From Tausonia pullulans (lineage: Eukaryota > Basidiomycota > Tremellomycetes > Cystofilobasidiales > Mrakiaceae), in assembly GCA_951802195.1 (NCBI GenBank), contig OX637625.1, positions 744,001 to 808,000 of the forward strand: 64,000 nt of DNA. Direction: 5' to 3'. The position numbers and the translations under genes are program-made. Below are positions 36,471 through 60,640 of this stretch, one piece after another (the first letter of the stretch is position 1; each line of letters begins with the position of its first letter). The notes below the pieces were generated by a model. That model was not told where the DNA came from, made no database searches, and saw nothing but the letters and a program-made list of their open reading frames with translations.

Positions 36471-36862
36471 TTTTTTTTTGTATTTAAGTCATGAGTTATA
36501 CGTAGAGAACGAGGTAACCCTATGAGAGATATCGAGTAGTAGCCAGATAGAGGGAGAGCGGACATGACCGAGCGCGAGAACGTCGGGCGAGGCGCCGTGG
36601 GAAGAGGGTTGGTCGAACCACTGGGGATGGTTGGCCGGACGGCGTGATGGGCGCCGTGAGAGGGGGGGGGGGGTTGGTCGAACCACTGGGGATGGTTGGC
36701 CGGACGGCGTGATGGGCGCCGTGAGAGGGGGGGGGGGTTGGTCGAACCACCGGGATGGTGGTTGGCCGGAAGGGGGTTGGTCGAACCACTGGGGATGGTT
36801 GGCCGGACGGCGTGATGGGCGCCGTGAGAAGGGGGGGGGGGGGTTGGTCGAACCACCGGGAT
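36471..36862 (-). mobile_element. short non-autonomous element with LINE tail and tandem repeats (copy A)
   Basis: Read on the minus strand: a CATCCCGGTGGTTCGACC start, alternating repeats of about 40-115 bp built on GGTTCGACCAACC and CGGCGCCCATCACGCCGTCC, then GACGTTCTCGCGCTCGGTCA, then a conserved 90-bp tail (TCTCATAGGGTTACCTCG, ACGTATAACTCATGACTT, AAATACAAA) ending in poly(A), seen as T(9) at 36471-36479. The last 90 bp are the same as the 3' end of the LINE at 36869-38891. It has no coding capacity and probably uses the LINE machinery, like a SINE or SVA-type partner. Confidence 0.75.
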
Positions 36863-36868
36863 GGCGAC

Positions 36869-38891
36869 TTTTTTTTTGTATTTAAGTCATGAGTTATACG
36901 TAGAGAACGAGGTAACCCTATGAGAGATATCGAGTAGTAGCCAGATAGAGGGAGAGCGAAAGTAAATAACAGGTAGAAGGAAAGCAATATATGGGTGTGG
37001 ACATAGGCCCATTAAAGAGGTAAGATATTAAGATGACCAGCTACATCAAGCAGTGGCTATGGACCAGCCATACTTCCCCACCCCAGACCTGCTTGTCACC
37101 CAGGATCGATGTCGGCGCCGACCGCAGTTCCATCCATCTGGTCCTTGTGAGCCCTCCACCTCGTACTCGACTGCCAGTGTTTCTGCTGGATCGTAGACGC
37201 GATCTTGCGGATCTCCTCGTCCGTGACAGGGTCGAGGGCTGCGATCTTGCTGTATCTCCGCCTCCGGACGAATCGCCATGTCCGGGCAACAAAGATGCAG
37301 TGGAAGAGGAAGACCCCCCTCGGCGGCGACGGTGTCGGGCAGACAAGCGTCTGGAGGGAGGGAGGATGGGAGGGGAGTGAAGGCGAGGCACGTGCAGCAG
37401 CCGCAGCAGACCAGATAGCGCCCACGACGGGACACGGCTCGTCGAAGAGGTGGAAGAAGGACTCAACGGGGGCCGTCAGGCACAGCGCACATCGCTTGGA
37501 CCTGTTGTGCGGTGTAGCGGTGCCGTCGGCGAGGAATGCCGCAGCAGTATGCTTTCCTGGGTGGAGACTGTACAGCGAGAAGCGGTGGGCCAAGTCGACG
37601 TCTTCGGGCGACGCTCGGGACACGGCCTTGAGCAAGCACCACTGCCGCTTCCAATCGATCTTGGTAAGCGCCGGAAAGTGGTCTTGCCACCCCTTTGGGA
37701 TGATGAGGCCGCGGTTGGCTAGAGTACGACTGTGTGCGCCGTGGGGCTCACGAGGAACGTTCAGCCGGCCCAGGTTTGTGTGGCCAGGGTGGAGAGCTAT
37801 CCGCAACTGGCTATCTGTACCGAACGTAGACATCCAGTGGACAGCGTTCCTCCAGCGGTCTTGATTCCAGTAACTCATGTCAAAGCTGATTTCTTCGAAC
37901 CATGCCCGGAGGTAAGCCTGCCATCGTGCAGGGAGAGCTCCTTGGAGCTTTGTGATGGCATTCCACCAGACGGCTGGGAAGAACCATTGACCTTCCACTG
38001 GGGAAAGGAATACGCCTAGCCAGCTGAAATTGGCGGGCCGAGGTCCTCTGATGAACTCTCCATCCCTGAAGATGGTGCGAGTCATCTTTCTATAAGCCCT
38101 TGGGTCGAGGCTCATGGTATGGATGATCCGCTTGCGAATACGGATCGATGCGGGAAGCTCCGGTCTGAAGAGCACATCGCCAGCCCACTGGGCGCGCGCT
38201 TTGATGAGCCGGAATCGGAGTGGCGTGAAGCCGAAGCCGCCGAGGTCTCGAGGGGTTTCCAGACGTTCCCTGCTGACGTCGTGGTGTTTCGATCGGTAGA
38301 GGGACTTGTAGGCCGTTGCCTCGAGGTCTTCCAGGATATCGTCTGGGCACGGCAGGAAGCGGTCCAGGTAGATGATCTTCGAGTTGATGTACTGGTTGAT
38401 GACGTTGCATCGCGCAAGGAGAGGGAGATCGTGCAGCGGGATGCGAGCAAGACGAGCCTTCAGCTTGCCGATGACATCTCGCCAGCAAGCAGGCACGTTG
38501 ACCGTGCGACCGCATGGAACGCCGAGGAAGTCGAATGAAAGCGTTTGGACGCGCCATTCGTGGTACCTCGTAGGCGCATCCGTCCGGCATGACCCTAGCG
38601 GATAGAGGAGTGATTTCTGGTAGTTCAGCTTGCTTGCTGCGGCTTTCTCGTACTCTCGGAGGCAGACCGTCGCCTCATCGACCTCCGACCAAGTCCGACA
38701 CCGGATACTTAGATCGTCTGCAAAGAGAAGGACCTTCCGCTCGTGTAGGGGGGGCGGATTGGCTGGTGGGAGGCGATGACGGAGCATACAAGCCAGCGGC
38801 TCCAGGAGGAGGGCGAAGATCGTCGGTGCCGCGGGATCGCCCTGTCGGACACCGGACCGGATATGGATGGCTTGACCCATCCATCCGGCGA
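36869..38891 (-). mobile_element. 5'-truncated LINE (non-LTR retrotransposon) with reverse transcriptase
   Basis: The minus frame 38880-37096 (594 codons) is open and encodes the C-terminal half of a LINE ORF2: GVRQGDPAAPTIFALLLEPL, the catalytic FADD box in LLFADDLSIRCRTWSEVDEA, the thumb region (SFDFLGVPCGRTVNV), and a C-terminal zinc-knuckle-like CALCLTAPVESFFHLFDEPC. The endonuclease domain and the first half of the reverse transcriptase are missing, so this copy is 5'-truncated and dead on its own. The 3' UTR (37095-36869) ends in the 90-bp tail and poly(A) shared with the short elements. The hexamer GTCGCC lies next to both ends and may be part of a target duplication. The clade is probably Tad/L1-like, which is inference from the knuckle and FADD box. 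Confidence 0.85.
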
Positions 38892-38892
38892 C

Positions 38893-39423
38893 TTTTTTTT
38901 GTATTTAAGTCATGAGTTATACGTGGAGAACGAGGTAACCCTATGAGAGATAGCGAGTTGTAGCTAGATAGAGGGAGAGCGGACATGACCGAGCGCGAGA
39001 ACGTCGGGCGAGGCGCCGTGGGAAGAGGGTTGGCCGAAACACTGGGGATGGTTGGCCGGACGGCGTGATGGGCGCCGTGAGAGGGGGGGGTTGGTCGAAC
39101 CACCGGGATGGTGGTTGGCCGGAAGGGGGTTGGTCGAACCACTGGGGATGGTTGACCGGACGGCGTGATGGGCGCCGTGAGAGGGGGGGGGGGGTTGGTC
39201 GAACCACCGGGATGGTGGTTGGCCGGAAGGGGGTTGGTCGAACCACTGGGGATGGTTGACCGGACGGCGTGATGGGCGCCGTGAGAGGGGGGGGGTTGGT
39301 CGAACCACCGGGATGGTGGTTGGCCGGAAGGGGGTTGGTCGAACCACTGGGGATGGTTGACCGGACGGCGTGATGGGCGCCGTGAGAGGGGGGGGGTTGG
39401 TCGAACCACCGGGATGGTGGTTG
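38893..39423 (-). mobile_element. short non-autonomous element with LINE tail and tandem repeats (copy C)
   Basis: Same plan as copy A. Poly(T) at 38893-38900 is the poly(A) tail of the minus-strand element, followed by the 90-bp LINE-type tail, the GACCGAGCGCGAGAACGTCGG module, and about four tandem units of about 105-115 bp ending at GGGATGGTGGTTG (39423). G runs of 7-11 separate the units. Its 5' end lies 91 bp upstream of tRNA-Lys at 39515. Confidence 0.78.
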
Positions 39424-39514
39424 CGACTTGTCAAGAGAAACATCCGTCAGGGGCAGTCCGCGACCGGTCGAAGGCTGCCATCGAACGACGACGGCTTCGG
39501 CTGGACTGTCTGCT

Positions 39515-39614
39515 GCCCTGCTAGCTCAATCGGTAGAGCGTCAGACTCTTAGGCAGGATGCTATCATCGTCACTGGTGATCTGAAGGTTGGGGGTTCGAC
39601 CCCCCCGTGGGGCT
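39515..39614 (+). tRNA. tRNA-Lys (CTT), intron 27 nt
   Basis: Acceptor GCCCTGC pairs with GTGGGGC. The anticodon loop CTCTTA is split after position 37 by a 27-nt intron beginning GGCAGGATGC, and the T arm is GGGGGTTCGACCCCCC. A T-run follows at about 39620. The copies at 48451 and 56611 have the same sequence, intron included. Confidence 0.95.
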
Positions 39615-40637: not shown

Positions 40638-40711
40638 GATCGATTAGCTCAGTTGGTTAGAGCGTGGTGCTAATAACGCCAAGGTCGCGGGTTCGACCCC
40701 CTCATTGATCA
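40638..40711 (+). tRNA. tRNA-Ile (AAT)
   Basis: 74 nt without intron. GATCGAT pairs with ATTGATC, the anticodon loop is CTAATAA, and A and B boxes are intact. A Ty1/copia element begins 54 bp downstream. Confidence 0.95.
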
Positions 40712-40765
40712 TCTCCTTTTGCATCCTCCACTCAGGATACTCTCTTCTCTTTGCCAGGGCGGGAG

Positions 40766-40941
40766 TGTTGAAGGTCTATGTTCGCCCTGGGGTCCAATGT
40801 GGTTGCAAGCTTATTGCATATACCCACTCGACTCTACCCGCTCATATAAGGTTAACCTAGTGGCGTAAAAAGTACTACAAAGGGAGGACAAGGGATGAAA
40901 ACTACTAGATTATAGGTCTCCGTGAATCACTCCTTCCAACA
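40766..40941 (-). repeat. 3' LTR of the copia element
   Basis: 176-bp repeat, TG...CA ends, partner of 45304-45479. Confidence 0.93.
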
Positions 40942-40984
40942 CTCCCACTCGATGAGCTGAGACCTACTTCATTTCCGCTCCTGA

Positions 40985-43900
40985 TCATCTTCCTGTACTT
41001 TGGCCAGTCTTCGGGTCCATACGCGAGCGGTGGTCCGTGATGCCTAATGACTTCTTGAAGCGTTCGAGTTTCTCTACGCCCAGGGCTTTTGTGAGTAGGT
41101 CTGCGAGCATGTCCTCCGTTGGACAGTATTGGAGTTCTATAAATCCGCTCTGCAATGCCTCTCGCCCGTACTTGTAGGCGACGTCGATGTGCTTCGTCTT
41201 CTCCGAATGTGTCCCGTTTTTGGTTGTCTCGATCGCTCCTTGATTGTCGACGTTGACCGGGATTGAAGTGAAGTCAAATCCGAGCTGTGCTAGGAGTTTG
41301 GCGACCCATCTTAGGGTCTGGCATCCGGCTGAGAGGGCTATGTACTCCGCCTCAAGGGATGATCGGCTGACTGCCTTTTGACGTCTGCTCGCCCAGATGA
41401 CAGTTGATCCAAGAACTTTGACGATGAATCCTGTGGTTGATCGTCGTGACTCGTGATCTCCAGCGTAGTCGGAATCCGTCCAAAGTTCTATGAGCGGTGC
41501 ATCTGGTTTCCCTCCGAGCGTGAGTGTTGTATCTGCCGATCCTTGTAGGTATCGGAAGATCTTCTTGACTGCTCCCCAGTGGACCCTTCGAGGATCCGAG
41601 CTGAATCGGCTAACGACTCCGACCCCGAAAGCGATGTCCGGTCGGGTGCAGACCTGAAGATACATGAGGGAGCCGACCGCCTCGAGGTACGGCACACCGG
41701 CCAGCTTGACTTTTTCTGACGAGGCGAGATCCTCTGATTGGACTGACAGTTGTCGAAAGTCGTCCATCGGGACCTTGTTTGGCTTGGCATTACTCATGTT
41801 GAAGCGTTCGAGGGCCGATTTGACGTATCGTTTCTGGCTGAGGAACATTGTTCCTGCCGTTCGGTCCCGTTGAACGTCGATCCCGAGAATGGTTCCGGGA
41901 TTAAGATCTCCTCGATCTTCGATTTTGAACTCCTTTTGGATCTCCTCCATTACCCATCTTAGGTCTTCCTTTCCTCCTGCTGCGACGAAGTCGTCGACGT
42001 ACTGGACCAAGATGATCCGTCGTCCTTCGCGATATCCGATGTAGACGCAGTGATCCGCTTCAACGGGATGGAGGTTGAGCCGTGTTTGGAAGAACCTTGA
42101 GGAATGGTTGTAGAATGCGAGGGGAGATTGTTTGAGTCCGTATAGGGCCTTGAGGAGGTGCGCGACCAGTTTCTTGTCCTGCCCTCCCTTCTGTTCATAC
42201 CCTGTTGGCTGATCCATGTAGACAGTTTCGACCAAGTCTGCCGTGAGGAACGCCGTTTTGAAGTCTCCTTGGACTAGGTCGAGGTCCTCTAATGCCGCTA
42301 TGGCGAGGACGATCCTCAGGGAGTTGAGCTTGGATACCGGCGCGTACGTCTCGACGTAGTCCACTCCTTCGCGCTGACAGTAGCCCTTGGCCACCCATCT
42401 AGCCTTGAAGCGAGTGATCCTCCCGTCTGCTCCTTTCTTGAGCGCGTACACCCAGCGCCCTCCGACCGTTTTCGATCCCGAGGGTAGCTCCGTGAGTTCA
42501 AAGACTCCGTTCCCTTCCATCGAGGCCATCTCTTCGTCCATTGCTTCCCTCCAGAAGTATGCGTGCTCCGACGTCATTGCTTCTTCGTACGTCTTGGGTA
42601 GTGAGGGTGATGGGAGATCCTCGAGGTTTGGTCTTGCCGCATACGCGTGGCCGACGAAGTCCTCTGAAACGAAATCGGTTATGTCGTAGTCCGTTTGGAT
42701 GTATTTCGCCGTGTCCGCTACTTCCGCGATCGACCTGTTTCGCATCCCTCGACCGTAGCTCCCACTCGATTGAACAGCGGGCTGGTCTTCCTCGACCTCC
42801 TCATAGTACCACGAGGGCTTGAGGCGGGATGTCTTTGGTTTGCCTGCTTCGGCTTTCCCGAGCGGGTCTTGTGGCACTTCTGGCTGCTTGGACGGTTGTG
42901 CTTGTTCCGTCGCCTTGTCCTCTTTCGACTGATCTATTCCTTTTATTTCCTCCTCTTCCCTGGATCCATTTGATCCGACCGTCGGCAACTCCGCTGTTTT
43001 TAGTGCCCCGAACGTTTCGTCGAAGATCACGTCGCGCGAGTATATGATGGCCCTCTTGGGGCTGCCGAAGACCTGGAGTCGGTACGCCTTCTTCCCTTCG
43101 GGTTCGCCGTATCCGAGGAAGATGCATTTGATCGCTTTTGACTGGTGCTTCTTCCTTTCCGGATCGAGTGCATACGCGATGCTTCCGAATGCTCGAAGGT
43201 AGGTGAGGTCGGGTTTCCGCTTGTGATAGGCCTGGAATGGGGTTTGATGGTTGATCGAGGCGGATGGGATGCGGTTAATCGTATAAGTGACGTAGTTCAT
43301 GGCTTCCGCCCAGTACGATGGGTCAAGCTCCCTCGCATCTCGTAGCGCGCAGGTGAGCTTCTCCTCGATGGTCCGCATTCCTCGTTCTGCCTTGCCGTTC
43401 TGTTGAGGTGTGCGTGGGATGGTCGTCTCCTGGATGATCCCCTCGTCCCGGAGATAGGACTCGTAGTCCTTTGACGTGTATTCCCCGCCGTTGTCTGACC
43501 TGATCCGTTTGACGACGTGACCGGTCCGTTTTTCTTCCTTCTTCCTCCATGCGATAAATGTCGCTAACGCCTCCGACTTCCGTTCCAAAGCGAACGACCA
43601 GTGGTAGTTCGAGAAGTCGTCCCAAATCGTCATCATGAAGCGCTTTCCTTGCGCTGACGCGACGGGCATTGGCCCTTGGAGATCCGTGTGAATAAGTTCA
43701 AGCGGAGAGGTCGTTTTGGTTGTGGAGGTGGGAAAGGGGTTCCGATGTTGTTTCCCTTCTACGCAAGGCACGCAGATTCGTTCTTTGAATCCATCGATGT
43801 CCTCCTTCGTGAAGGCTGGTAGAAGTCTCTGGCTGATGAGCTTCTCCATTGCTGAGATGGAGGCATGGCCGAGCCGGCGGTGGACGAGCTCGATCTTGTC

Positions 43901-45280
43901 GACTCCCGATGCCGTGAACGCCACGTCCTCCTCCCTTGTGCCGGCTCTTCCTGAGTCGGTCACATCCAGCATGTAGAGGTTTTTCGAAACCTCCCGACCC
44001 TCCATGAAGACTTGCCCGTTTCTAATGAATTGACAGTGCTTCTTGGAGGTGAGCTCCCTCTTGAGGAATCTCGTCTCGACTCCTTTGTTGCCGAGTTGTC
44101 CAATGCTGATGAGGTTTGCGAACCCGGGGATGTGATATACCTCCGAAATCGTGAAGTACCTCTCGACTCCTCCCACTCTCGAGCGCAGGCGGATTTCTCC
44201 GATTCCTAATACCTGTGCTGGAGTTCCATCGGCCGTCCTGACCGTGTGTTTGAACTGCTTGTACTTGACGAAGCGTTCTCGCTCTCCTACGATGTGATTC
44301 GTAGTTCCGCTATCTGCGATATATCCGAGCTTTGTCACGATGTTCAGTGACTGGTCCGACACTGATGTGGTGGGTCCGACTTGAAGGCTGAAATCCGAGA
44401 CCGATGGCCCCGCGATGTTCGCCTCGTCCCTCCCTTTGTTTCCCTTGTTCCCCTTCCTTGACTTCTTTCCCTTCCCAAATCCTTTGGGTTTTCCGACGAG
44501 TTCCCAACACTCGGTCTTGAAGTGTCCAACCTTTCCACAATGATGGCACGTGGCCTTCTTCCTATCAATCAATAGCGCCGAGTCGTTCGACGTGATTGAG
44601 GTGGAGGGTTTGAGTGACTCGTGGGTCCGGACGTAGACCAGGAGGGATGTTGCGACGGTGGTGGGGGAGAGTTGTTCCTTGGTGTCTTGAGCTCGGAGGG
44701 TTTGATGTTGGATGAATGACTCAAGGGAGGCGGGGAGTCCGCTGAGGAAGAACAGCGAGCTCATACGATCCGGGATGGAGAGGCTGAGGGCCGTCATGTC
44801 ATCGACGATCCGTTGGAATTCATCGATGTACTCTTGAACGGACCCTCCCTCCTCCATCCTCAGATCCCTCATCCTCCTGATGGCCATTACTTCTCCTGCA
44901 CCTCCTTCCACCTTGTGAGTCTTCCTCAGAAGATCCCACGCCTCCTTTGCGTGCGAGCAGTTCCGTATCCTCGGTAACTCACGGTCGCTGACTGCCATCT
45001 GGATTCTGTGGAGCGCGAACTCGTCTTTGCGGTCCCACTCCTTGATCTCTGCGGCGTTGGTAGGTGTGGTGGTTGTCTCTTGTGTGTCCTTGTCTGTGAC
45101 TCTTTGGACTGGAACGGGAGTGGGCCTGGTTTTCGTACCTAGGACAACGGGCTTGCAGTCCGCCTCTCCAAAAGCTATAAGCATTCTTACAGCCCAGGTC
45201 TCGTAGTTTGTACCATCGAGAGCAGCGAGCTTGAAGAGCTTATGATCGAGCTTCTTGGAGTAGGCTTCCGTTAAGGACAT
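40985..45280 (-). CDS. copia gag-pol polyprotein
   Basis: A single frame of 1431 codons in Ty1/copia order. Gag has a CCHC zinc knuckle (CHHCGKVGHFKTEC). An aspartic protease follows (YIADSGTTNHIV), then integrase (GAG-pre-integrase HRRLGHASISAME, later DDFSNYHWSFALERK and IRSDNGGEYTSKDYESYL), reverse transcriptase (ARWVAKGYCQREGVDY, DFKTAFLTADLVETVYMDQP, LVQYVDDFVAAGG) and RNase H (TDSDYAGDHESRRSTTGFIV). Fusion of gag and pol in one frame is common in this group. It is the only intact-looking transposon protein in the window. Confidence 0.93.
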   Translation of the reverse strand: MSLTEAYSKKLDHKLFKLAALDGTNYETWAVRMLIAFGEADCKPVVLGTKTRPTPVPVQRVTDKDTQETTTTPTNAAEIKEWDRKDEFALHRIQMAVSDRELPRIRNCSHAKEAWDLLRKTHKVEGGAGEVMAIRRMRDLRMEEGGSVQEYIDEFQRIVDDMTALSLSIPDRMSSLFFLSGLPASLESFIQHQTLRAQDTKEQLSPTTVATSLLVYVRTHESLKPSTSITSNDSALLIDRKKATCHHCGKVGHFKTECWELVGKPKGFGKGKKSRKGNKGNKGRDEANIAGPSVSDFSLQVGPTTSVSDQSLNIVTKLGYIADSGTTNHIVGERERFVKYKQFKHTVRTADGTPAQVLGIGEIRLRSRVGGVERYFTISEVYHIPGFANLISIGQLGNKGVETRFLKRELTSKKHCQFIRNGQVFMEGREVSKNLYMLDVTDSGRAGTREEDVAFTASGVDKIELVHRRLGHASISAMEKLISQRLLPAFTKEDIDGFKERICVPCVEGKQHRNPFPTSTTKTTSPLELIHTDLQGPMPVASAQGKRFMMTIWDDFSNYHWSFALERKSEALATFIAWRKKEEKRTGHVVKRIRSDNGGEYTSKDYESYLRDEGIIQETTIPRTPQQNGKAERGMRTIEEKLTCALRDARELDPSYWAEAMNYVTYTINRIPSASINHQTPFQAYHKRKPDLTYLRAFGSIAYALDPERKKHQSKAIKCIFLGYGEPEGKKAYRLQVFGSPKRAIIYSRDVIFDETFGALKTAELPTVGSNGSREEEEIKGIDQSKEDKATEQAQPSKQPEVPQDPLGKAEAGKPKTSRLKPSWYYEEVEEDQPAVQSSGSYGRGMRNRSIAEVADTAKYIQTDYDITDFVSEDFVGHAYAARPNLEDLPSPSLPKTYEEAMTSEHAYFWREAMDEEMASMEGNGVFELTELPSGSKTVGGRWVYALKKGADGRITRFKARWVAKGYCQREGVDYVETYAPVSKLNSLRIVLAIAALEDLDLVQGDFKTAFLTADLVETVYMDQPTGYEQKGGQDKKLVAHLLKALYGLKQSPLAFYNHSSRFFQTRLNLHPVEADHCVYIGYREGRRIILVQYVDDFVAAGGKEDLRWVMEEIQKEFKIEDRGDLNPGTILGIDVQRDRTAGTMFLSQKRYVKSALERFNMSNAKPNKVPMDDFRQLSVQSEDLASSEKVKLAGVPYLEAVGSLMYLQVCTRPDIAFGVGVVSRFSSDPRRVHWGAVKKIFRYLQGSADTTLTLGGKPDAPLIELWTDSDYAGDHESRRSTTGFIVKVLGSTVIWASRRQKAVSRSSLEAEYIALSAGCQTLRWVAKLLAQLGFDFTSIPVNVDNQGAIETTKNGTHSEKTKHIDVAYKYGREALQSGFIELQYCPTEDMLADLLTKALGVEKLERFKKSLGITDHRSRMDPKTGQSTGR

Positions 45281-45303
45281 GGTCGCTATTGGTGCTGATA
45301 ACG

Positions 45304-47527: not shown

Positions 47528-47837
47528 CGGTGCCTGCCATACAGCAATGCGATGGCATGCCAATCATTGTCCGCAGCCGTCAGCTGCTTCGGCTGCCCAA
47601 TATCCGTCCATACATTCGGCATGTTACTCTTGTTTCCACACACACATATCTTGACGACGTCGCTCCCACGCGACAACGGCCCCATATACGCTATGTACGG
47701 GGTAGACAGCAGACAGCAGACAGACAGCTCGGACCTTTCCACAGATTACTCTAGGACACGACTCGTGTTCTCAAGGGTTGGTTCCACGCCAATCGACAGC
47801 AAAAGTAGACCGTCACCTCAAGCTCACGCTCACGCTA

Positions 47838-47909
47838 TATCAGGACCGGGAATTGAACCCGGGTCTAGGCGGTGTTAACACCTTGTACTAACCATTATAC
47901 GATCCCGAC
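47838..47909 (-). tRNA. tRNA-Val (AAC)
   Basis: Same 72-nt sequence as 39809-39880, on the minus strand. Confidence 0.95.
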
Positions 47910-47989
47910 AATCAACTGCTGATGGTCTTCCTCCCTCCATCCCTGCCATCTCTTCCAACTCCGACGCTGCCTCCCGCCTCTTTGTTTTA

Positions 47990-48071
47990 CTTAAATACAA
48001 AAACTTTGTCGTCGCCATCTCTCATAGGGTTACCTCGTCCTTCACGTATAACTCATGACCTGAATACAAAA
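47990..48071 (+). mobile_element. two stacked LINE-tail fragments
   Basis: A 17-bp tail end (ACTTAAATACAAAAA) is followed by GTCGTCGCC and then a second, 60-bp copy of the LINE tail (ATCTCTCATAGGGTTACC to TGAATACAAAA). Both point away from tRNA-Val, whose 5' end is 80 bp away. The mirror copy lies at about 57091-57170. Confidence 0.7.
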
Positions 48072-48861: not shown

Positions 48862-48956
48862 TGATCGGAATGGGATTCGAACCCATGCCCGTGAAGACTA
48901 GCGAGTTCTATTCAAGAACCTTAAGCTAGCGCCTTAGACCGCTCGGCCATCCGACC
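48862..48956 (-). tRNA. tRNA-Leu (AAG), intron about 15 nt
   Basis: Class II. GGTCGGA pairs with TCCGATC. Anticodon stem CTAGC/GCTAG, loop TTAAGG interrupted by about 15 nt, T arm GGGTTCGAATCCC. Identical to the copy at 55789. Confidence 0.93.
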
Positions 48957-49077
48957 GTGTGATGTGATGAACAACACAGCGAGAGCCGACCACGTCCCTC
49001 GGCTCAGCTTGCCCCTGGCTCTTCACCGAGAGGATGACAACGAGGGGGGTCTGACGAGGAAAGAAGACGAGATGCAG

Positions 49078-49688
49078 GTCGGCTGCGGCAGCGCGTGCCT
49101 CTCCTTCACTCCCCTCCCATCCTTTCTCTCTCCAGACGCTCGTCTGCCCAACCCCGTCGCCGCCGAGGGCGGTCTTCCTCTTCCACTGCATCTTTGTAGC
49201 CCGGACATGGCGATTTGTCCGGAGGCGGAGGTACAGCAAGATCGCAGCCCTCGACCCTGTCACGGACGAGGAGATCCGCAAGATCGCGTCCACAATCCGC
49301 CAGACACACTGGCAGTCGACCACGAGGTGGATGGCTAGCAGTGGCCAGATGGCTGGTCCTGCTGTCGGTGCCGCCATCGATCCTGGGTGAACAGCAGGTC
49401 AGGGGCCGGGGAGTATGGTTAGACCATAGACCATAGCCACCGCTCGACATAGCTGGTCATCTTGATATGCACTTTTCTATCTCCCTTACCTCCTACATAA
49501 TTCATCTCTAATCGACGCTCTTTACCATGGACATTTTACCCTTTCTCATGGGCCTACGTCCATACCCATCTCTTGCTTTCCTTCCACCTCTTCGTTCATC
49601 TTCGCACTCCCTCTATCTAGTTACGACTCACCACATCTCATAGGGTACCTCGTCCTTTATGTATAACTCATGACTTGAATACAAAAAG
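49078..49688 (+). mobile_element. heavily 5'-truncated LINE copy
   Basis: Plus-strand copy of the last about 100 codons and the 3' UTR of the LINE at 36869-38891. It reads RTWRFVRRRRYSKIAALDPV and TDEEIRKIASTIRQTHWQST, ends at the same position with a stop near 49390, then has the UTR and a tail ending GACTTGAATACAAAAA. It starts 121 bp from the 5' end of tRNA-Leu and points away from it. Confidence 0.82.
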
Positions 49689-49846
49689 CATCCCCGGTGG
49701 TTCAACCAACCACCTTCCCACGGCGCCTCGGCCGACGTTCTCGCGCTCGGCCATGTCCGCTCTCCCTCTATCTAGCTACCACTCGCTATTTCTCATAGGG
49801 ATACCTCGTCCTCTACGTATAACTCGTGACTTAACACAAACACGAG
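49689..49846 (+). mobile_element. short LINE-tail element without tandem units (copy E)
   Basis: Joined directly to the poly(A) of the preceding LINE copy: TCCCCGGTGGTTCAACCAACC, the GACGTTCTCGCGCTCGGCC module, then the 90-bp tail ending GACTTAACACAAACA. It has the same module order as copies A, C and D but a collapsed repeat region. Confidence 0.7.
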
Positions 49847-50605: not shown

Positions 50606-50692
50606 TTTTTTTGTATCAAAGCCATGAGTCATACGTAGAGAACGAGGTACCCCTATGAGCGACAGCGAGTCGTAGCTAGATAGAGGGAGAGA
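50606..50692 (-). mobile_element. LINE-tail fragment (minus)
   Basis: T(7) then the 90-bp tail in reverse complement (GCCATGAGTCATACGTAGAG to TAGAGGGAGAGA). It ends 68 bp upstream of tRNA-Ile at 50761 and points away from it. Confidence 0.75.
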
Positions 50693-50760
50693 CAGATGGC
50701 TGGCACGGGCGCTTGTGAAGGCATCGCGTGCCTGACACTTGCGGTCACTGTCCGACAGTT

Positions 50761-52451: not shown

Positions 52452-52457
52452 CGGGAT

Positions 52458-52516
52458 GCCTCGAGCCTCGGCCAACCAGGCTGCCGGACGCTCTAACAGA
52501 TAAGCTACCGAGGCGG
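52458..52516 (-). pseudogene. tRNA-like 5' half, probably a relic
   Basis: The minus strand has an acceptor, A-box and D arm that look like a tRNA start (GCCTCGGTAGCTTATCTG, TTAGAGCG), but no anticodon arm with T33 and no normal T arm follow. A broken tRNA, or one with an intron I failed to resolve. Confidence 0.35.
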
Positions 52517-52624
52517 TGGTGGCCGTCAAGCTGGCCAGGATATGCCCGAGCAGCGCGCGCCAGCTATCGCCGGACTCGTTCCCTACCTCGAGAAAATGCA
52601 TTGGAAGCCGTCGCAAAAGGTGTA

Positions 52625-52696
52625 TTCCCCTGCCGGGAGTCGAACCCGGGCCTTGACGGTGAAAGCGTCATATCATAACCGTTAGACAACAAGGGA
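52625..52696 (-). tRNA. tRNA-Glu (TTC)
   Basis: 72 nt. TCCCTTG pairs with CAGGGGA, anticodon arm TGACG-CTTTCAC-CGTCA, T arm CCGGGTTCGACTCCCGG. Confidence 0.94.
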
Positions 52697-52983
52697 GATC
52701 GTCGTCGTCGACTCAGTCAGTACGCACTCTGCTCTCGCCAGATCCAACTGCCCTCGCGCTCTCGCAAGTGCCTCATCAGTCAAGGTGCTCATTTGGCAAT
52801 ACAGAGAGAGCCTCGATGTCTTGTGGTTCTGGCTGGCCGCTCTAATACAAGCTCCGGCGGGTACGCCATGGTCGGTGGTCGGGCCGACCTTCCGCTCCCG
52901 GGCTCCTGGTTCCGCTGCTCCTGCTGTTGGGGTCTCGCTTCACCTTCACCCTCCTCGACCAAGCTCGGGACCCCAAAACATTT

Positions 52984-53074
52984 TCACCGCTCGCGGGATC
53001 GAACCGCGCACCTTGAGAGATGTGTGTGTGGGTGACGTTACAGTCTCACGCTCTTCCAGATGAGCTAAGCGGTG
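52984..53074 (-). tRNA. tRNA-Tyr (GTA), intron 18 nt
   Basis: CACCGCT pairs with AGCGGTG. Anticodon stem TGAGA/TCTCA, loop CTGTAA then an 18-nt CA-rich intron, T arm CGCGG-TTCGATC-CCGCG. A second Tyr gene with a different intron lies at 61269. Confidence 0.9.
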
Positions 53075-54474
53075 GCGGCGTTGGAGTCGAACCCGCCTGC
53101 CCTTGGCTGCGGCCGTCATCGCAGGCGCCGGGCCTTTGTCCTTGCTAGAGCACGTCATCAAGAGGCTCGATCCCGTCGGTTCAAGCCTCCTCACTTCGGA
53201 GTCAGACTACGGAAACTGGAAACTGCACACTGCACACTGCTACTAGAGAATGCAAAGCGCGAGAGGGTGGAGCAACGTGGACTGCAAGCGAAATGGGCAA
53301 AGGAGAAACCCTGATCTTCAAAGCTCGGCGATCATCATCGACTGGCGACAGATGGCCAGTCATACGCAGACACACGCAGACACACGCAGACACACGCAGA
53401 CACACGCAGACACACGCAGACACACGCAGACACACGCAGACACACGCAGACACACGCAGACACACGCAGACACACGCAGACACACGCAGACACACGCAGA
53501 CACACGCAGACAACGTAGGGCCAAGACACGATCCGGGACGTAAGAATGAAAGGGGGGAAGGTGTTGAATTGAAGTCAAGGTGCTGGGGCAGGCGACGCTC
53601 AGGAAGCAATGCTGGGTCTCCTGACATAGAATGAGCAGCAGAACTCTTGTTGCCGAGACTTTTGGCGAAGGAGACGACAAAGTATAGAGCGCGAGTGCTG
53701 GGTCCTTTGACCGGAAGAGAAACGGACGAAATCAACGGACGAAATCGTCGACAGGCTGGAGAGGAGGGGGAGGAGGGGGAGGAGGGGGGAGGGAGAGGGG
53801 ACAAGGGGCAAGAGGGACCGAGAAGGAGAGAGAGGAGACAAGAGAAGAGAGGAGACAAGAGGAGAGCGGAGCCGACGAGGGAGACTGAGAGCAGAGACGA
53901 CGGCACCGATCGACAGCCATCACCGCCCCAGCATGCGCAGACTCCGATATAATAAAGGAGAACGCAGCACTCAACATATGCAGGATAGGAGAGGCAAACG
54001 CCAGTAGGACCCTGGAGGCGAGTACGTGGAGCTCTCGAGCACGCCGAAATGCCAATGAATCATTGGCCAACCCCGTCAGTGATCTGGACGCAGCGAAGGC
54101 TGCGTAGGTAGGAGTGCGTGTGCGCCTCGAGAAGGAGAACACACTGTTCGAGGACCTGTGCTGATCTGGTAGACAAGGGAAGGAGCGAGAGGGAAGAAGA
54201 GACGAGCTGAGGAGGGCAAAGAAGGCGATGGACAGGGGAGGTTGAGAGATGGTTGGATCGGTCGCGAGCGAGATACATCAAAGATGGCTACTCCTCAGTT
54301 CCCAGCATACTCCACCTGGAGACTGGACCTCACGCACGCTCTAGACATCAAACATCCGCAAAGCGGCCAGACGTCTGTTGTGACTCTAGGTGCGATTCGA
54401 GGAGAGGAAGGTCATGGGGAATGGCAACTCCGTGTCCCGGCTCGTACGCCACCGATGACACAGCCAAAAAGACA
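53075..54474. other. long inter-tRNA spacer with minisatellite
   Basis: 1.4 kb without a supported gene. It contains the 10-bp array at 53361-53510 and a purine-only stretch near 53755-53870 rich in GGGAGGAGG. Confidence 0.5.
53361..53510. repeat. 10-bp minisatellite, 15 units
   Basis: One unit CATACGCAGA followed by 14 perfect units of CACACGCAGA. No drift between units, so it is recent or is being homogenised. Confidence 0.97.
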
Positions 54475-54548
54475 TGATCAATGAGGGGGTCGAACCCGCG
54501 ACCTTGGCGTTATTAGCACCACGCTCTAACCAACTGAGCTAATCGATC
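54475..54548 (-). tRNA. tRNA-Ile (AAT)
   Basis: Same 74-nt gene as 40638 and 50761, minus strand. Confidence 0.95.
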
Positions 54549-55145
54549 AACTGTTGCACGATGGCAAGCCATCAGGCCCGGCACGCTACACCCCGGAGCG
54601 CTTGCTCGAAGAGAGGTCGGGCTAGCCAGTCGAGGGAGCCAGTCGAGGGAGCCAGTCGAGGGAGCCAGCCCGGCGACAGATACAGTCCTTTGGGTCACTG
54701 TGAACCCGGCTCGACTCCGAAATGTCCCCCCGAACCCTCTCGCTCCGACGGACTCGCCATCTCCCACGTCCCGACCAACAGCCCCCACCCAACATCCCTA
54801 CCAACATCCCTACCAACATCCCTACCAACATCCCCACCGACACCCTTACCAAACACCTACCAACCCCCCAACCCTCTTCCCCACCCCCCCCCCCCCCCCT
54901 ACCGACGCTCCCACCAAGTCTGTGACCACGAGGAACCCAAGTCCGGCGCATGCCTCCGAGGGCTACCCGTCGATCCTCCATCTTTGGGCTCGTTCGCCGC
55001 TGGCCGATGCCAGCGCGTTTCCCGGCGGTATCCGTCTCCGTGGCCCGGCACGATGGACGAATACGATAGCGGGCAAAGGTTCATTCCTGGGGAGAGAGTG
55101 AAGGGGCAGCTGGTCCAAGTGGAGAAGGATTGATGGGGGGTTTTG
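54549..55145. other. inter-tRNA spacer with short tandem repeats
   Basis: 13-bp units AGCCAGTCGAGGG (x3, about 54623-54664), 12-bp units ACCAACATCCCT (x4, about 54775-54832) and a C(14)-like run near 54884-54898. No gene supported. Confidence 0.55.
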
Positions 55146-55234
55146 TTTTTTTTGTATGAAGTCATGAGTTATACGTAGAGAACGAGGTAACCCTATGAGA
55201 GATGGTGAGTCGTGGCTGGCTAGAGGGAGAGCGG
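55146..55234 (-). mobile_element. LINE-tail fragment (minus)
   Basis: T(8) then the 90-bp LINE tail in reverse complement (GTCATGAGTTATACGTAGAG to TAGAGGGAGAGCG). It ends 66 bp upstream of tRNA-Glu at 55300, pointing away. Confidence 0.78.
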
Positions 55235-55299
55235 ATCGACCAGGGTCATCGACGGTCACCATCAGTCGTTGACGGACATAGAGAAACCATCTGACGATC

Positions 55300-55371
55300 T
55301 CCTTTGTTGTCTAACGGCTATGATATGACGCTCTCACCGTCAAGGCCCGGGTTCGACTCCCGGCAAGGGAA
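55300..55371 (+). tRNA. tRNA-Glu (CTC)
   Basis: 72 nt. TCCTTTG pairs with CAAGGGA, anticodon arm TGACG-CTCTCAC-CGTCA. A T(11) terminator starts within 10 bp. Confidence 0.94.
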
Positions 55372-55788
55372 TGTCTGTTTTTTTTTTTCGTTCTCTCGCC
55401 ACGTATCTTTACACAGAGAGCTGTGCGGTCGAGACCCAGGGCGGCGACTGGCGACTGGCGCTAGCGTGTGATCAGACCCAGACCCGTCGCCCGCCATGGC
55501 TCGTCGTCCTCAGCACTCGGAGTCCTGCTACAGCGAGAAGCCGGCAGTGTCTCCCGGTGGCTTGGGCCTTTCCGGCGCGTCTCGTGCCCAAGTCGAAGGA
55601 CGAGACGATCGCAGAGTGGCGGCTGGCTTCGAGCGTGCGAGCGGGTCGATTTATACTGCGCTTGTCCGCCCGCGTGCATGTTTGTCAATGAAGGAGGATG
55701 CTTGAGGATGAGGTGAACGACGGGAAGCGGGCGAGGGGATGGCGGACGAGTGCGGTGGCCTCCTCGTGGGATTCCATTACGAGCACGC
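55372..55788. other. inter-tRNA spacer, no gene seen
   Basis: Starts with a T-run that serves as Pol III terminator for tRNA-Glu. Nothing else recognised. Confidence 0.45.
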
Positions 55789-55883
55789 GGTCGGATGGCC
55801 GAGCGGTCTAAGGCGCTAGCTTAAGGTTCTTGAATAGAACTCGCTAGTCTTCACGGGCATGGGTTCGAATCCCATTCCGATCA
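55789..55883 (+). tRNA. tRNA-Leu (AAG), intron about 15 nt
   Basis: Same 95-nt gene as 48862-48956, opposite strand. The following spacer opens with 10-bp GGCTGGTGGC units (about 55893-55935). Confidence 0.93.
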
Positions 55884-56119
55884 TGCATTCGTTTTGGCTG
55901 GCTGGTGGCGGCTGGTGGCGGCTGGTGGCGGCTGGTGGCTACTTGCCGGCGGCTGGCGCTGGTTGCTGGCAGTCTGGTGGATGCTTGGCGGCGGCTGGCA
56001 GTCTGGCCGCTCGCCCACGCCAGAGGGGTTGCTACGATGGGCACAGGGTATCGCGAAGGTGTCGAGATCCGTCGGGCCGCTCGTGCCCCCATTGGCTTGT
56101 CTCTCCTGACGATTCTGCC

Positions 56120-56253
56120 GTCTTTGGTGGTCCAACGGCTAAGATGTCCGCCTGTCAATTAGGCTCCGACGCCGCCCATTCTCTCCGGAGAACAGGCTGG
56201 CGAGAGAGCCCAGTTGTCCGCGGGAGACCGGGGTTCGACTCCCCGCCAGAGAG
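56120..56253 (+). tRNA. tRNA-Asp (GTC), intron 62 nt
   Basis: TCTTTGG pairs with CCAGAGA. Anticodon stem TCCGC/GCGGG, loop CTGTCA then C, T arm CGGGG-TTCGACT-CCCCG. The intron, 56157-56218 after position 37, is 62 nt. The joined exons give a normal 72-nt tRNA-Asp. Confidence 0.85.
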
Positions 56254-56603
56254 CGCTTCTTTTTGGCCAGGTGGCCAGCTGGGCGGGCGAGTTGGTGAGT
56301 TTGCCGAGATCTCTGAGACGGGGACAGCGCACGGGAGCATGCGGCCTGAGAGGGACATCTTGGCGTCGAGTGGGGGGCAGACACGAAAGAGCGCTGCAGA
56401 TCTGGGCGACTGACTGCTGAGTTGATCGCGAGCGTTGATCGGGAAGATTGATCGCGAAGGTTGATAGCGGGCGTTGACTGCGGCGTTGGGCTCAGAGATC
56501 AGCTGGTGAAGAGACCTCCGCTGTTGTACTCCGCCCTCGGGGACGGATCCCACTAGGAATGGACGCGATGTGGGCAATGGACGACGACGGCTTCGGCTGG
56601 GTT
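56254..56603. other. inter-tRNA spacer
   Basis: Has three imperfect units of GATCGCGAGCGTT type near 56420-56480. No gene. Confidence 0.45.
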
Positions 56604-56610
56604 GTCTGCT

Positions 56611-56710
56611 GCCCTGCTAGCTCAATCGGTAGAGCGTCAGACTCTTAGGCAGGATGCTATCATCGTCACTGGTGATCTGAAGGTTGGGGGTTCGACCCCC
56701 CCGTGGGGCT
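56611..56710 (+). tRNA. tRNA-Lys (CTT), intron 27 nt
   Basis: Third copy of the same gene. The flank just upstream resembles that of 39515 (ACGACGGCTTCGGCTGG), while the downstream flank matches that of 48451. Confidence 0.95.
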
Positions 56711-57090
56711 AATGTTTCCTTTTGCAGGTTCCAAAGGGCGTCTGAGGTTACATCTGCCCATCTGAACAGGCCAGGGATGGACAGGGCGAGGGCGGGGGCG
56801 AGGGCGAGCACGAACAGCGCGAGGAGGGACGGGCACCGTCCAGCGGCTCTCATGTGGGACCCAGCTCGACACGAACCGTCGGGGCACGAGCCGTCCGGGT
56901 CCTGGCCGCGACTGAGCCATCGATCTAGCGCAAGATCGATGAGCAGCCTCCGAGTTGGCCAGTTGGCCAGCCCCAGGGCGGAGGGCGCAGGGCGGAGGGC
57001 GCAGAGGTCTCTTTTCTTTTCTGCATGAAAGTCAAGGATCATGTGTCGTTAGTGTAGAGGAGACGACACGACGCTGGGAGAGACGGCAAT

Positions 57091-57170
57091 GTTGTATTCA
57101 GGTCATGAGTTATACGTGAAGGACGAGGTAACCCTATGAGAGATGGCGACGACAAAGTTTTTGTATTTAA
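57091..57170 (-). mobile_element. two stacked LINE-tail fragments (mirror of 47990-48071)
   Basis: Same two tail pieces as the left arm, in reverse complement, about 80 bp upstream of tRNA-Val. Copied with the segment, so not an independent insertion. Confidence 0.7.
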
Positions 57171-57251
57171 GTAAAACAAAGAGGCGGGAGGCAGCGTCGG
57201 AGTTGGAAGAGATGGCAGGGATGGAGGGAGGAAGACCATCAGCAGTTGATT

Positions 57252-57323
57252 GTCGGGATCGTATAATGGTTAGTACAAGGTGTTAACACCGCCTAGACCC
57301 GGGTTCAATTCCCGGTCCTGATA
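57252..57323 (+). tRNA. tRNA-Val (AAC)
   Basis: Third copy of the 72-nt tRNA-Val gene. Confidence 0.95.
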
Positions 57324-57536
57324 TAGCGTGAGCGTGAGCTTGAGGTGACGGTCTACTTTTGCTGTCGATTGGCGTGGAACCAACCCTTGAGAACACGAGT
57401 CGTGTCCTAGAGTAATCTGTGGAAAGGTCCGAGCTGTCTGTCTGCTGTCTGCTGTCTACCCCGTACAGAGCGTATATGGGGCCGTTGTCGCGTGGGAGCG
57501 ACGTCGTCAAGATATGTGTGTGTGGAAACAAGAGTA

Positions 57537-57853
57537 TTTTTTTTTTGTATTTAAGTCATGAGTTATACGTGGAGAACGAGGTAACCCTATGAGAGATAGC
57601 GAGTTGTAGCTAGATAGAGGGAGAGCGGACATGACCGAGCGCGAGATCGTCGGGCGAGGCGCCGTGGGAAGAGGGTTGGCCGAACCACTGGGGATGGTTG
57701 GCCGGACGGCGTGATGGGCGCCGTGAGAGGGGGGGTCGAACCACCGGGATGGTGGTTGGCCGGAAGAGGGTTGGTCGAACCACCGGGGATGGTTGGCCGG
57801 ACGGCGTGATGGGCGCCGTGAGAGGGGGGGTCGAACCACCGGGATGGTGGTTG
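57537..57853 (-). mobile_element. short non-autonomous element with LINE tail (copy D), filled site
   Basis: T(10) at 57537-57546, the 90-bp LINE tail, the GACCGAGCGCGAGATCGTCGG module and two tandem units ending GGGATGGTGGTTG. It interrupts DNA that is continuous in the left arm near 47624-47627, so its ends are exact. The flanks share only TA or GTA, so any target duplication is 2-3 bp. It lies 99 bp upstream of tRNA-Ser, pointing away. Confidence 0.88.
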
Positions 57854-57952
57854 TAACATGCCGAATGTATGGACGGATATTGGGCAGCCGAAGCAGCTGA
57901 CGGCTGCGGACAATGATTGGCATGCCATCGCATTGCTGTATGGCAGGCACCG

Positions 57953-58034
57953 GCTGACTTAGCCAAGTGGTTACGGCGTTTGATTAGAAATCACATCCTC
58001 TTTGAGGGCGCAGGTTCGAGTCCTGCAGTCAGCT
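57953..58034 (+). tRNA. tRNA-Ser (AGA)
   Basis: Same 82-nt gene as 47446-47527, at the outer end of the right arm. Confidence 0.93.
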
Positions 58035-58617
58035 TTTCCCTCGTTTTTTTACGCCGCGATGTTAGCTCCTCGTCCTGTCGTCAGGCACGACACCGGACAC
58101 TTGCTCCTCTTGTCCCCGATCTCACCCCCTCCCCAGCACGATCAGGACCTCAGTCTTGTTGTCGTCATTGGCCATCCAGTCCCATACAGTCGGATCTTAT
58201 ACCATCCCATTCAGTGCATTTCACTGGGCCACATGGCAAAACGGTAAATCATCACCCAATCCTCTCAGACCCTGACTTTGCTCCAGAGACCTCGCAAGCA
58301 ACGTCGGGATGCAGTGCAAGATATCATCGTGATCAATAACGGCGTCGGGCCCACAGCGTTTGCATTCCCGGCACCACGCCCTATCCAGCCGAGCCAATCG
58401 ATCTGGGGAATGATGGTATGGAGAACACTTTCGAGCGAGCGCTCGATCTCGACGGCGGCCCACGTCGTGTTTCCGAACCGGGCGACTGACTGGCAGAAGG
58501 ATCTCCCAGCTCTGACCAGCGCCGACTGGCGCCGACTGCAGGCAGTGTTGCTGGCGTCAGCCCAAGGGCCAAGGGCCAAGGGTAGAGGAGAGGGATGAGG
58601 AGAGGGGTGAGAAGAGG
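58035..58617. other. inter-tRNA spacer, no gene seen
   Basis: Unrelated to the flank of the left arm. Long overlapping open frames arise from biased composition; none has a domain. Confidence 0.45.
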
Positions 58618-58738
58618 GGCGTCGGTGGAGGGGCATCGGTGGAGGGGCATCGGTGGAGGAGCATCGGTGGAGGAGCATCGGTGGAGGGGCATCGGTGGAG
58701 GAGCATCGGTGGAGGGGCATCGGTGGAGGGGCATCGCT
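58618..58738. repeat. 15-bp minisatellite, about 8 units
   Basis: Units of CATCGGTGGAGGGG and CATCGGTGGAGGAG separated by C, alternating irregularly. Confidence 0.92.
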
Positions 58739-58739
58739 A

Positions 58740-59030
58740 GAGGAGTAGACCGAAGTGCGGGCAATGAATGGCACAGGCTTGCTTTGGGGTCGTGGGCGGG
58801 TTTGTCGAGTCCGACTGATAGCGAGTGCAGAACTACTATCTGCGATGGACTGAGCGGAGCGTTTTGTAGACGAAGGGCGAGAAGAATGGAGGAGACGAAA
58901 AAAGACGAGAAAGCAAAGAGTGAGTGTCGGCGTGGGGGGAGAAGGACCGAAGGAGGGGGAATGCCGAGCAAGCAAGGGAGAGAGAGGCCTAGGGCAGGCG
59001 AGGTAGACGCAGGCGCTGAGCTCCCGCTGG
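58740..59030 (+). repeat. family R fragment, copy 5
   Basis: Diverged partial copy of the solo LTR: GGCACAGGCTTGCTTTGG, GATGGACTGAGCG and GAGCAAGCAAGG blocks keep the order seen in copies 1-3. Confidence 0.5.
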
Positions 59031-59106
59031 TCCCCTCACCGAAGCTGGTCACGGCCCATAAGCATGTCCACATGGCCACATGGCCAGACAGCACGGAGAA
59101 AAAATG

Positions 59107-59193
59107 TAATGGTGCCGGGAATTGAACCCGGGCCTAGTGCATGCTGCAAATCTGCTTGGCAAGCACCAATGATAGCCACTTCACCACACCATC
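59107..59193 (-). tRNA. tRNA-Gly (GCC), intron 15 nt
   Basis: GATGGTG pairs with CACCATT (one wobble). Anticodon stem GGTGC/GCACT, loop TTGCCA then a 15-nt intron, T arm CCGGG-TTCAATT-CCCGG. A near-identical copy lies at 60731. Confidence 0.88.
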
Positions 59194-60136
59194 GCATATC
59201 TCAGTCACCGCAGCCTCCATCACATCAGCAGTCGCCTCACACAGCCATCCCAATCTCACCGACTGCTTCAGGCCATCACCGCACATGTCCAAAGACACGA
59301 CAGGGTTCCTGTTTTCTTGGAACAGGAATCCCAGCGGCCTGGTTCAAAGACGCTGCAGTGTGGTCCGCCTGTGAAGAATGGATTTCATGCTTTAACCATT
59401 TCGACACGTGTCCTAGTAAAAGGCACTAAATCGGATCGGAGGATCGGAAGAGACCCAATTGCATGAGACTAAGTAGCCTATAGCGAAACAGGAGCGTGAT
59501 CCTGACACCGCCGTCTGCAATGCTATTTGCCAATCACCATCCATCGCTCAAGATTCCCATCAGTCTCTGTCTCTCGTGCGCCGGGCCATGCTGCCGGGCC
59601 GTGGGGTGGGTGGGAGAACGTCGACGGGAGACGGATCTGGCGACAAGGGGACGACGACGAGCGGCCTTCGTGCCTTCGTGCCTTTGCCCCTTCGCGAGCT
59701 GGGGTCCGTTCACTTCGCATCCAGTCTGCGACCTGCCCATGGACAGTGTGCTGCAGCCGTCGGTCGACCTATGCAACGATTATGGCCATGAGCCCTTGCT
59801 GTGTGTCCGACGACGGGGCCCGATCGGCCTTTCCTTCTCGAACTCAGGTCACCGCCTGCTGATGAGCGGCGCCGGCTGGTATGCTCAAACCCCAGAGTCC
59901 CACCCACTTGGATCTCCGACCATGGCTGTTGCCTCCCCTCTTGCTTCCAGCACTTTTCTCACGTGCTTGGCCAATGGCCGACATGTTGGCCATGCCAGCA
60001 GCGAGCGCCCAGGCTCAAGGATGCGAGGCGGAGGGGATGGCGGCTCGAGAGGAAAGGGCAGAAGAAAGGAGGAGGTTCTTAGAGCAAAAGGTCCAAGGGC
60101 CGCTTCATCAGGATGCGGCTTGAAAGGCCAAAAGGT
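59194..60136. other. inter-tRNA spacer
   Basis: No gene seen. Near 59380-59420 the minus strand looks like a tRNA start (GGACACGTGTCG, AAATGGTTAAAGC), but no full cloverleaf follows. Confidence 0.45.
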
Positions 60137-60208
60137 TGAATGTGAGGTGAATCGAACACCTGTCTCAAGAATGGAAATCTTGAATAATAACCACTATACG
60201 ACACATCC
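60137..60208 (-). tRNA. tRNA-Gly (TCC)
   Basis: 72 nt. GGATGTG pairs with CACATTC, anticodon arm CAAGA-TTTCCAT-TCTTG, T arm AGGTG-TTCGATT-CACCT. Confidence 0.9.
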
Positions 60209-60614
60209 CTCAATCGCTCGATGATCCTTGCACGCCACCGGGGATCTCGCCTGCGCTTGCGTCTCTGAGCCCACGGCTTTGTTCTGCTCGGTATTCTGCG
60301 TAGGCGTGGCTTTAGGGGTCTCCTGTGTCGACTCTTGCGAGGAGCCACAAGGGGCCACGAGGAGTCGCCGACGAGCCACGAGGAGCTGCAGGAACAAACA
60401 CGCGAGGAGAGGAACGACCCTCCTCTTCCGCTCACCCCCTTCCCCTTCCCCCTTTACTCCCCCCCCCCTCCTCCTTACTCCGGTTGGCCATCCCCGCCGC
60501 TTCCGGGAGCGCGCGCACGATAGCGCATCTCCCTTCCCCGGTCCGCTGCCTCTCATTGACTACGGCCATTGTATTTTGAAGTCGCAGATGACTCGATGGT
60601 TAGAATACAAACCC
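60209..60614. other. inter-tRNA spacer, no gene seen
   Basis: Short GAGCCACGAGGAG-type units near 60338-60385. Confidence 0.45.
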
Positions 60615-60640
60615 TTTTTTTTTTGTATTTAAGTCATGAC
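60615..60640 (-). mobile_element. very short LINE-tail remnant
   Basis: T(10) followed by GTATTTAAGTCATGAC only, the last bases of the LINE tail. It lies 90 bp upstream of tRNA-Gly, in the same orientation as other tails. Confidence 0.65.

Follow-up and report, generated by a model that had tools for sequence, protein, structure and literature searches.

Known tRNA-targeting retrotransposons and the fungal case

Retrotransposons that settle upstream of transfer RNA (tRNA) genes have been described in dictyostelids and in fungi. In the accessible part of PMC5911963, Table 1 names TRE5, TRE3, NLTR-A and NLTR-B as the tRNA-targeting elements without long terminal repeats (non-LTR elements), all of them dictyostelid, and TRE5 (TRE5-A) of Dictyostelium discoideum is presented there as lying upstream of tRNA genes in the opposite orientation and as having a link to TFIIIB. 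The present study concerns a window of 64,000 nucleotides, the whole stretch analysed, from the basidiomycete Tausonia pullulans (contig OX637625.1, positions 744,001 to 808,000; C6:744001-808000 in our numbering), in which a long interspersed nuclear element (LINE) and a short non-autonomous partner are found repeatedly in front of tRNA genes. The LINE is of the L1 type, and we consider it very probable that it and its partner, which has the same 3ˊ tail, insert by target-primed reverse transcription approximately 80 bp upstream of tRNA genes under the guidance of the RNA polymerase III (Pol III) complex.

The comparison with TRE5 that had been drawn in an earlier note on this stretch is apt with regard to geometry. 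As far as the accessible text of PMC5911963 goes, TRE5 is likewise an L1-type non-LTR element with oligo(A) that lies upstream of tRNA genes and is transcribed in the opposite direction. However, TRE5 inserts at 44-54 bp rather than at the median of 81 bp found here, TRE5-A uses a −1 frameshift for its second open reading frame (ORF) where the fungal LINE has a one-base TAATG overlap, and its host belongs to a different kingdom. NLTR-B of Polysphondylium pallidum also resembles TRE5 in its upstream location, at 39-64 bp according to the same portion of that source, but it has three separate ORFs with RNase H, which gave no match in our domain search of the LINE. The fungal retrotransposons that this portion places upstream of tRNA genes, Ty1/Ty3 of yeast and Ylt1/Tyl6 of Yarrowia, are LTR elements with an integrase, and their distances and mechanism differ. 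No tRNA-targeting fungal LINE was found in the open-licence literature searched, and the accessible portions of PMC5006619 and PMC7175516 make no mention of a fungal LINE at tRNA genes. The fungal case suggests that the same harmless landing zone was reached independently, and it offers a second system in which to ask how Pol III factors guide a LINE.

Position, side and orientation across the genome

A 26-base pattern from the LINE 3ˊ tail, with up to three mismatches allowed, matches the 23.9-Mb genome (23,855,473 bases in 21 contigs) at 421 places, 242 forward and 179 reverse, whereas the reversed pattern used as a control has no match genome-wide. The tail-copy sample consists of the first 100 listed of these matches, all exact and all on contigs C1-C5, chosen blind to tRNA genes. 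The DNA around part of these tails was read, and tRNA genes were called with ARAGORN with introns on, with the Rfam tRNA list as a further source. The 85 resulting rows comprise 38 stacks before ordinary tRNA genes, three before circularly permuted ones, one without a gene, 14 whose edge was not reached and 29 without an element union of at least 40 bp; two of the latter are short remnants (L034 and L036) and the other 27 are tails that were not read individually.

In this genome-ordered sample, the distance, side and orientation of the tails relative to the nearest tRNA gene are fixed. An inner edge could be read for 44 stacks, of which 41 stop 37-126 bp before a tRNA gene on the same strand, at 37-117 bp for the ordinary genes and at 106-126 bp for the permuted ones. 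The chance that a random point would qualify is 0.0019 on the generous assumption of 900 tRNA genes, and 0.0043 within the 20 tail-chosen loci L009-L028.

Counting from the tRNA genes leads to the same picture. An element edge lies at most 150 bp upstream in 62 of the 129 non-identical tRNA genes in all DNA read, and no element was found within this distance of the other 67. The 62 gaps average 81.7 bp (standard deviation 15.9, median 81, range 37-136), span 22 isotype/anticodon labels, including one doubtful SeC label from ARAGORN, and hardly vary with the length of the intron (r = −0.10). In all 62 the element is antisense to the tRNA with its poly(A) pointing away, and the opposite orientation was not seen once. 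The earlier note had claimed this arrangement for the window, where it holds in every case. It had also seen no element on the 3ˊ side. At least 150 bp of 3ˊ sequence was read for 121 of the 129 genes, and none there belongs to a downstream site, although a single fragment does lie downstream and is part of the next gene's site.

These counts drop genes of identical context and omit element unions below 40 bp, such as the remnant before tRNA-Gly 60731 and a 20-bp piece before a tRNA-Glu gene in L070; L001, L003-L005 and L007 were excluded because of window overlap or duplicated clusters. Near-identical genes were kept and merged in a separate later step wherever their 60-bp 5ˊ flanks were at least 80% alike, which reduces the 62 cases to 57 groups with a median gap of 80 bp. 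A set of 20 regions, drawn from the Rfam tRNA list for contigs C6-C15, holds 47 tRNA genes; 13 of them are preceded by an element, always facing the same way, and none of the 47 has a downstream element within 150 bp (for five, less than 150 bp was read on that side).

Loci L024-L026 (C2:362201-377416 and 398749-407549) hold an array of LINE and short copies before one tRNA-Ile gene, with tails spaced ~6.1-6.3 kb apart and with the middle unread.

The LINE and its short partner

The full copy, read in L013, is ~5.8 kb long and carries two ORFs. ORF1 (P0002) encodes 625 amino acids with two CX2CX4HX4C knuckles visible by eye, and ORF2 (P0001) encodes 1224; the ORF1 stop codon and the ORF2 ATG share one base as TAATG. 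The reverse transcriptase domain of ORF2 matches RVT_1 (E 7.8e-25), and its best solved match is human L1 ORF2p (E 6.6e-45, compared to 1.7e-15 for the best R2-like entry). An apurinic endonuclease (APE) domain may also be present, to judge from a weak, sub-threshold Exo_endo_phos match (22.6 bits vs a cut-off of 24.5) and from the motifs GGDWN, RIDRFY and SHK visible in ORF2. The copies show a poly(A) tail, 5ˊ truncation and target duplications, which are L1-type traits. Judged by these sequence features, the autonomous member is an L1-type non-LTR retrotransposon.

The non-autonomous form is built of ~100-bp tandem units and has its 3ˊ tail in common with the LINE, a trait reminiscent of short interspersed nuclear elements. 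Its units hold GGTTCGACCAACC, a nearly palindromic word resembling box B that was found by eye about twice per unit (36590-36860 and 38990-39422) and is a candidate part of an internal Pol III promoter. In 24 of the 65 junctions, the sequence compared at the inner edge contains the word GGTGGTT, which suggests that the element has a defined 5ˊ terminus.

The closest database relative of ORF2 is Microbotryum silenes-dioicae BQ5605_C011g06555 (33% identity over 96%). This fits the basidiomycete host named earlier, to which the histone deacetylase also points: most named fungi among 120 of its 327 matches are basidiomycetes, with Microbotryomycetes at ~70% over ~62% of the query. The biotin synthase differs. 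The gene at 24-1028 of L089 (C5) is ~90% identical to Dothideomycetes, a likeness for which horizontal transfer or a mixed assembly is possible.

Target duplications, an empty site and ordered stacks

In 27 of 65 pairs, the left and right flanks of the elements have 5 bp or more in common (shuffle mean 3.8, maximum 9 in 1000), and in 18 of 51 (shuffle mean 2.5, maximum 8) once 14 pairs with element sequence in the left flank are removed. The duplication is often 5-8 bp long, and it is 3 bp in the best-documented case, the insertion before tRNA-Ser 57952. For that insertion (57537-57852), an empty-site match exists at 47625-47627, where flanks of 136 bp (99.3% identity) and 187 bp (100%) meet with an overlap of 3 bp. 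The duplications together with this exact empty site establish that these are real insertions.

The stack before tRNA-Lys in the window carries GCGAC before the T-runs of both inner copies and again after the innermost copy, while the outer (left) flank of the outermost copy is without it. The presence of GCGAC at three junctions indicates that the site was regenerated and reused. L003 and L004 were considered as an empty site for this stack and failed. Decay is clearly more advanced in the outer tail than in the inner one at L006, L015, L020, L023, L033 and L081, six of the 13 stack entries. Reused sites leave ordered stacks of this kind, which can record successive insertions.

Circularly permuted tRNA genes

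Loci L014, L008 and L054/L055 were at one point listed as exceptions without a tRNA gene, and were dropped as such when reading of the DNA revealed permuted genes. For Thr(UGU), Thr(CGU) and Gln(CUG), the 3ˊ half is placed upstream of the 5ˊ half with the junction at the canonical intron position, and a T-run is mostly present after the 5ˊ half. Joining the halves at that position yields a recognised tRNA with the correct anticodon in all three cases. The genome has exactly two copies of each half of Thr(UGU) when up to three mismatches are allowed, both of them in permuted order (L008 and L090). The 3ˊ half of Thr(CGU) occurs 10 times, and all eight occurrences that were read are permuted; that of Gln(CUG) has one exact match and 20 unread ones with 2-3 mismatches. 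No permuted tRNA genes in fungi were found in the open-licence literature searched. In the accessible part of PMC3978253, Table 1, which is headed unicellular algae and archaea, gives Gln(CTG) and Thr(CGT) in Cyanidioschyzon merolae, and fungal permuted tRNA genes are not shown there.

An element is clearly upstream at five of the 11 permuted loci: L008, L014, the mirror pair L054/L055 and L091, which has element repeats next door. At L090, the sequence that was read stops after 9 bp of an element end, and at L092, L093 and L095 less than 145 bp was read before box B, such that an element may be missed. Upstream of permuted genes, 120-157 bp separate the element edge from box B and 145-224 bp separate it from the mature 5ˊ end, compared to ~133 bp (81 + ~52) between edge and box B in an ordinary intronless gene. 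Because the distance to box B is kept and that to the mature 5ˊ end is not, the site appears to track the promoter and not the end of the tRNA. Permuted genes separate recognition of the tRNA 5ˊ end from recognition of the promoter complex, which ordinary tRNA genes cannot do.

The chances are roughly even that the insertions form a natural map of where Pol III promoters lie, since the element would read the assembled Pol III initiation complex and not tRNA sequence. Such a map would point to fungal permuted genes for Thr-UGU, Thr-CGU and Gln-CUG, from which most or all of these tRNAs may come, and it might also mark a Pol III gene at L019 that has escaped recognition. A minor rival holds that the permuted Thr genes are Y-RNA-like; Rfam at E 0.01 over seven permuted Thr loci returned only a sub-threshold YrlA match at L055 (31 bits, cut-off 69).

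Locus L019 itself holds an element copy at 1797-2330, and its inner flank shows a TATA-like stretch and T-runs. This flank is possibly an unrecognised Pol III gene.

Mechanism and alternative explanations

A simple series of steps would produce the observed position, side, orientation, duplications and stacking, as well as the reuse of the Lys site. The element proteins would be placed by the Pol III initiation complex, consisting of TFIIIB assembled by TFIIIC. The orientation of the elements places the primer end on the tRNA-sense strand, and a priming cut there would then yield an antisense element whose 5ˊ end faces the tRNA. The short duplication would keep the target site on the tRNA side, and later copies could thereby enter between the gene and the older copies to form stacks. 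The earlier note had named TFIIIB or TFIIIC as possible guides. Binding of TFIIIB by ORF1 and a requirement for box B in targeting are characteristics of TRE5. The insertions at permuted genes, by keeping their distance to box B, favour guidance by the assembled Pol III complex and make this proposal more likely, although we still infer it.

The same note had offered open chromatin as the other possibility, whereby the endonuclease would cut nucleosome-free DNA such as the open 5ˊ flanks of tRNA genes. tRNA genes are generally nucleosome-poor. However, accessibility alone predicts insertions in both orientations, on both flanks and at Pol II promoters, whereas one side, one orientation and a spread of only 16 bp are seen, and we regard this explanation as unlikely. 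A DNA motif recognised by the endonuclease and present by coincidence in front of tRNA genes would agree with the recurrence of GCGAC in the Lys stack, but no base dominates at any of the six positions before the poly-T across 65 junctions and the targets span many isotypes, which leaves this idea with very little probability. We give equally little weight to random insertion followed by selective survival near tRNA genes. The genome is compact, as this would require, yet selection explains neither the fixed strand nor the narrow distance of ~80 bp, and both flanks should be similarly safe. The least probable proposal, to be set aside almost entirely, is that the tRNA genes were carried by the elements or co-duplicated with them. 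Inverted duplications of tRNA clusters do occur in the window and in other regions, and five of the 62 cases merge as near-duplicates. Nevertheless, 57 groups of many isotypes remain and more than half of the 129 tRNA genes lack one within 150 bp. Moreover, target duplications stand between element and tRNA, and the exact empty site refutes this proposal for the insertion before tRNA-Ser 57952.

Several observations weigh against insertion guided by the Pol III complex or narrow its evidence. The decayed remnants L034 and L036, a mirror pair of inverted duplicates, lie 261 and 260 bp upstream of tRNA-Asp, and the stack at L019 has no nearby gene by ARAGORN or by Rfam (at E 5, over 1900-3300). 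The 47-bp gap at L013 is fixed by the arbitrary end of the query. The one U6 gene met (L019 7343) has no upstream element that could be found, and none is visible upstream of the sole 5S match, which is partial. In 23 of the 65 flank pairs there is no common word of at least 3 bp. Three of the 13 stack entries do not show older copies outside (L013, L080, whose inner tail is truncated, and the Lys stack), and in four the tails differ by 0-1 mismatch. The evidence from permuted genes comes from four independent clear sites (L008, L014, L054/L055 and L091) plus the partial L090. L094 is a misfit, since a motif resembling an element end stands there 61 bp upstream of box B, with no element recognised around it. 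Finally, A-box-like words in the permuted leaders are weak, with a full match in three distinct leaders at shuffle fractions of 0.06-0.10 that are overall not significant.

Elements and target genes in the window

The elements of the window and their targets are collected in Table 1, together with the permuted loci found elsewhere. The earlier note had placed LINE-tail elements before tRNA genes for Lys, Val and its mirror, Leu, Ile, Glu, Ser and Gly, and ARAGORN and the tail search bear this out. Every listed element runs antisense to its tRNA gene, and its poly(A) is directed away. The distances given previously for Lys (91 bp), Ile (68), Glu (66), Ser (99) and Gly (90) agree closely with the measured gaps. 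In contrast, the 121 bp given for Leu must be replaced by 69 bp, and the Val gaps are 101 bp, nearer to the former ~80 bp only if a small tail fragment at ~57156-57171, seen by eye, is counted.

Table 1. Elements, target sites and target tRNA genes in the window (window positions), and permuted tRNA loci (locus positions).
Feature	Position	Strand	Remarks
Short non-autonomous copy, outermost of Lys stack	36471..36863	-	3ˊ tail at 36478; tandem ~100-bp units
LINE copy, 5ˊ-truncated	36869..38887	-	3ˊ tail and C-terminal part of ORF2; 594-aa (amino acid) ORF at 37096-38880
Short non-autonomous copy closest to tRNA-Lys	38893..39422	-	
GCGAC target duplication, reused site	39423..39427		same 5 bases at 36864-36868 and 38888-38892
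tRNA-Lys (CTT, intron 27), target	39515..39614	+	gap 89 bp by BLAST edge
Empty target site before tRNA-Ser 47445-47528(-), mirror arm	47625..47627		GTA on - strand
tRNA-Val (AAC), target	47837..47910	-	
Decayed tail remnant before tRNA-Val 47837-47910(-)	48012..48071	+	gap 101 bp
tRNA-Leu (AAG), target	48862..48956	-	gap 69 bp, to LINE ORF2 piece
Old stack before tRNA-Leu	49026..49834	+	LINE ORF2 3ˊ piece 49026-49468; pieces 49530-49834, tails at 49648 and 49804
Tail copy before tRNA-Ile 50760-50835	50606..50691	-	gap 68 bp; LINE fragment 50455-50518 farther out
Tail copy before tRNA-Glu 55300-55371	55140..55235	-	gap 64 bp
Tail copy before tRNA-Val 57251-57324	57092..57149	-	mirror of 48012-48071; gap 101 bp
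Short non-autonomous insertion before tRNA-Ser 57952-58035	57537..57852	-	gap 98 bp; 3-bp GTA duplication
25-bp tail remnant before tRNA-Gly 60731-60818	60615..60639	-	gap 91 bp
Permuted tRNA loci	L008 2180-2300; L090; L014 2141-2227; L052 284-356; L054; L055 721-795; L091-L095		

The LINE fragment at 50455-50518 sits 98 bp on the 3ˊ side of a doubtful tRNA-Ser call (50211-50356) and belongs to the Ile 50760 site. The region 46500-64000 is a dense tRNA cluster with inverted duplications, of which the longest piece is 952 bp at 99% identity.

The window also contains a Copia-type LTR retrotransposon at 40766-45479 with a 1431-amino acid ORF. It has 177-bp direct repeats (40765-40941 and 45303-45479) that are 99% alike, with an apparent GGGAG duplication. 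This element lies ~54 bp downstream of tRNA-Ile 40638-40711, and is possibly another tRNA-associated element.

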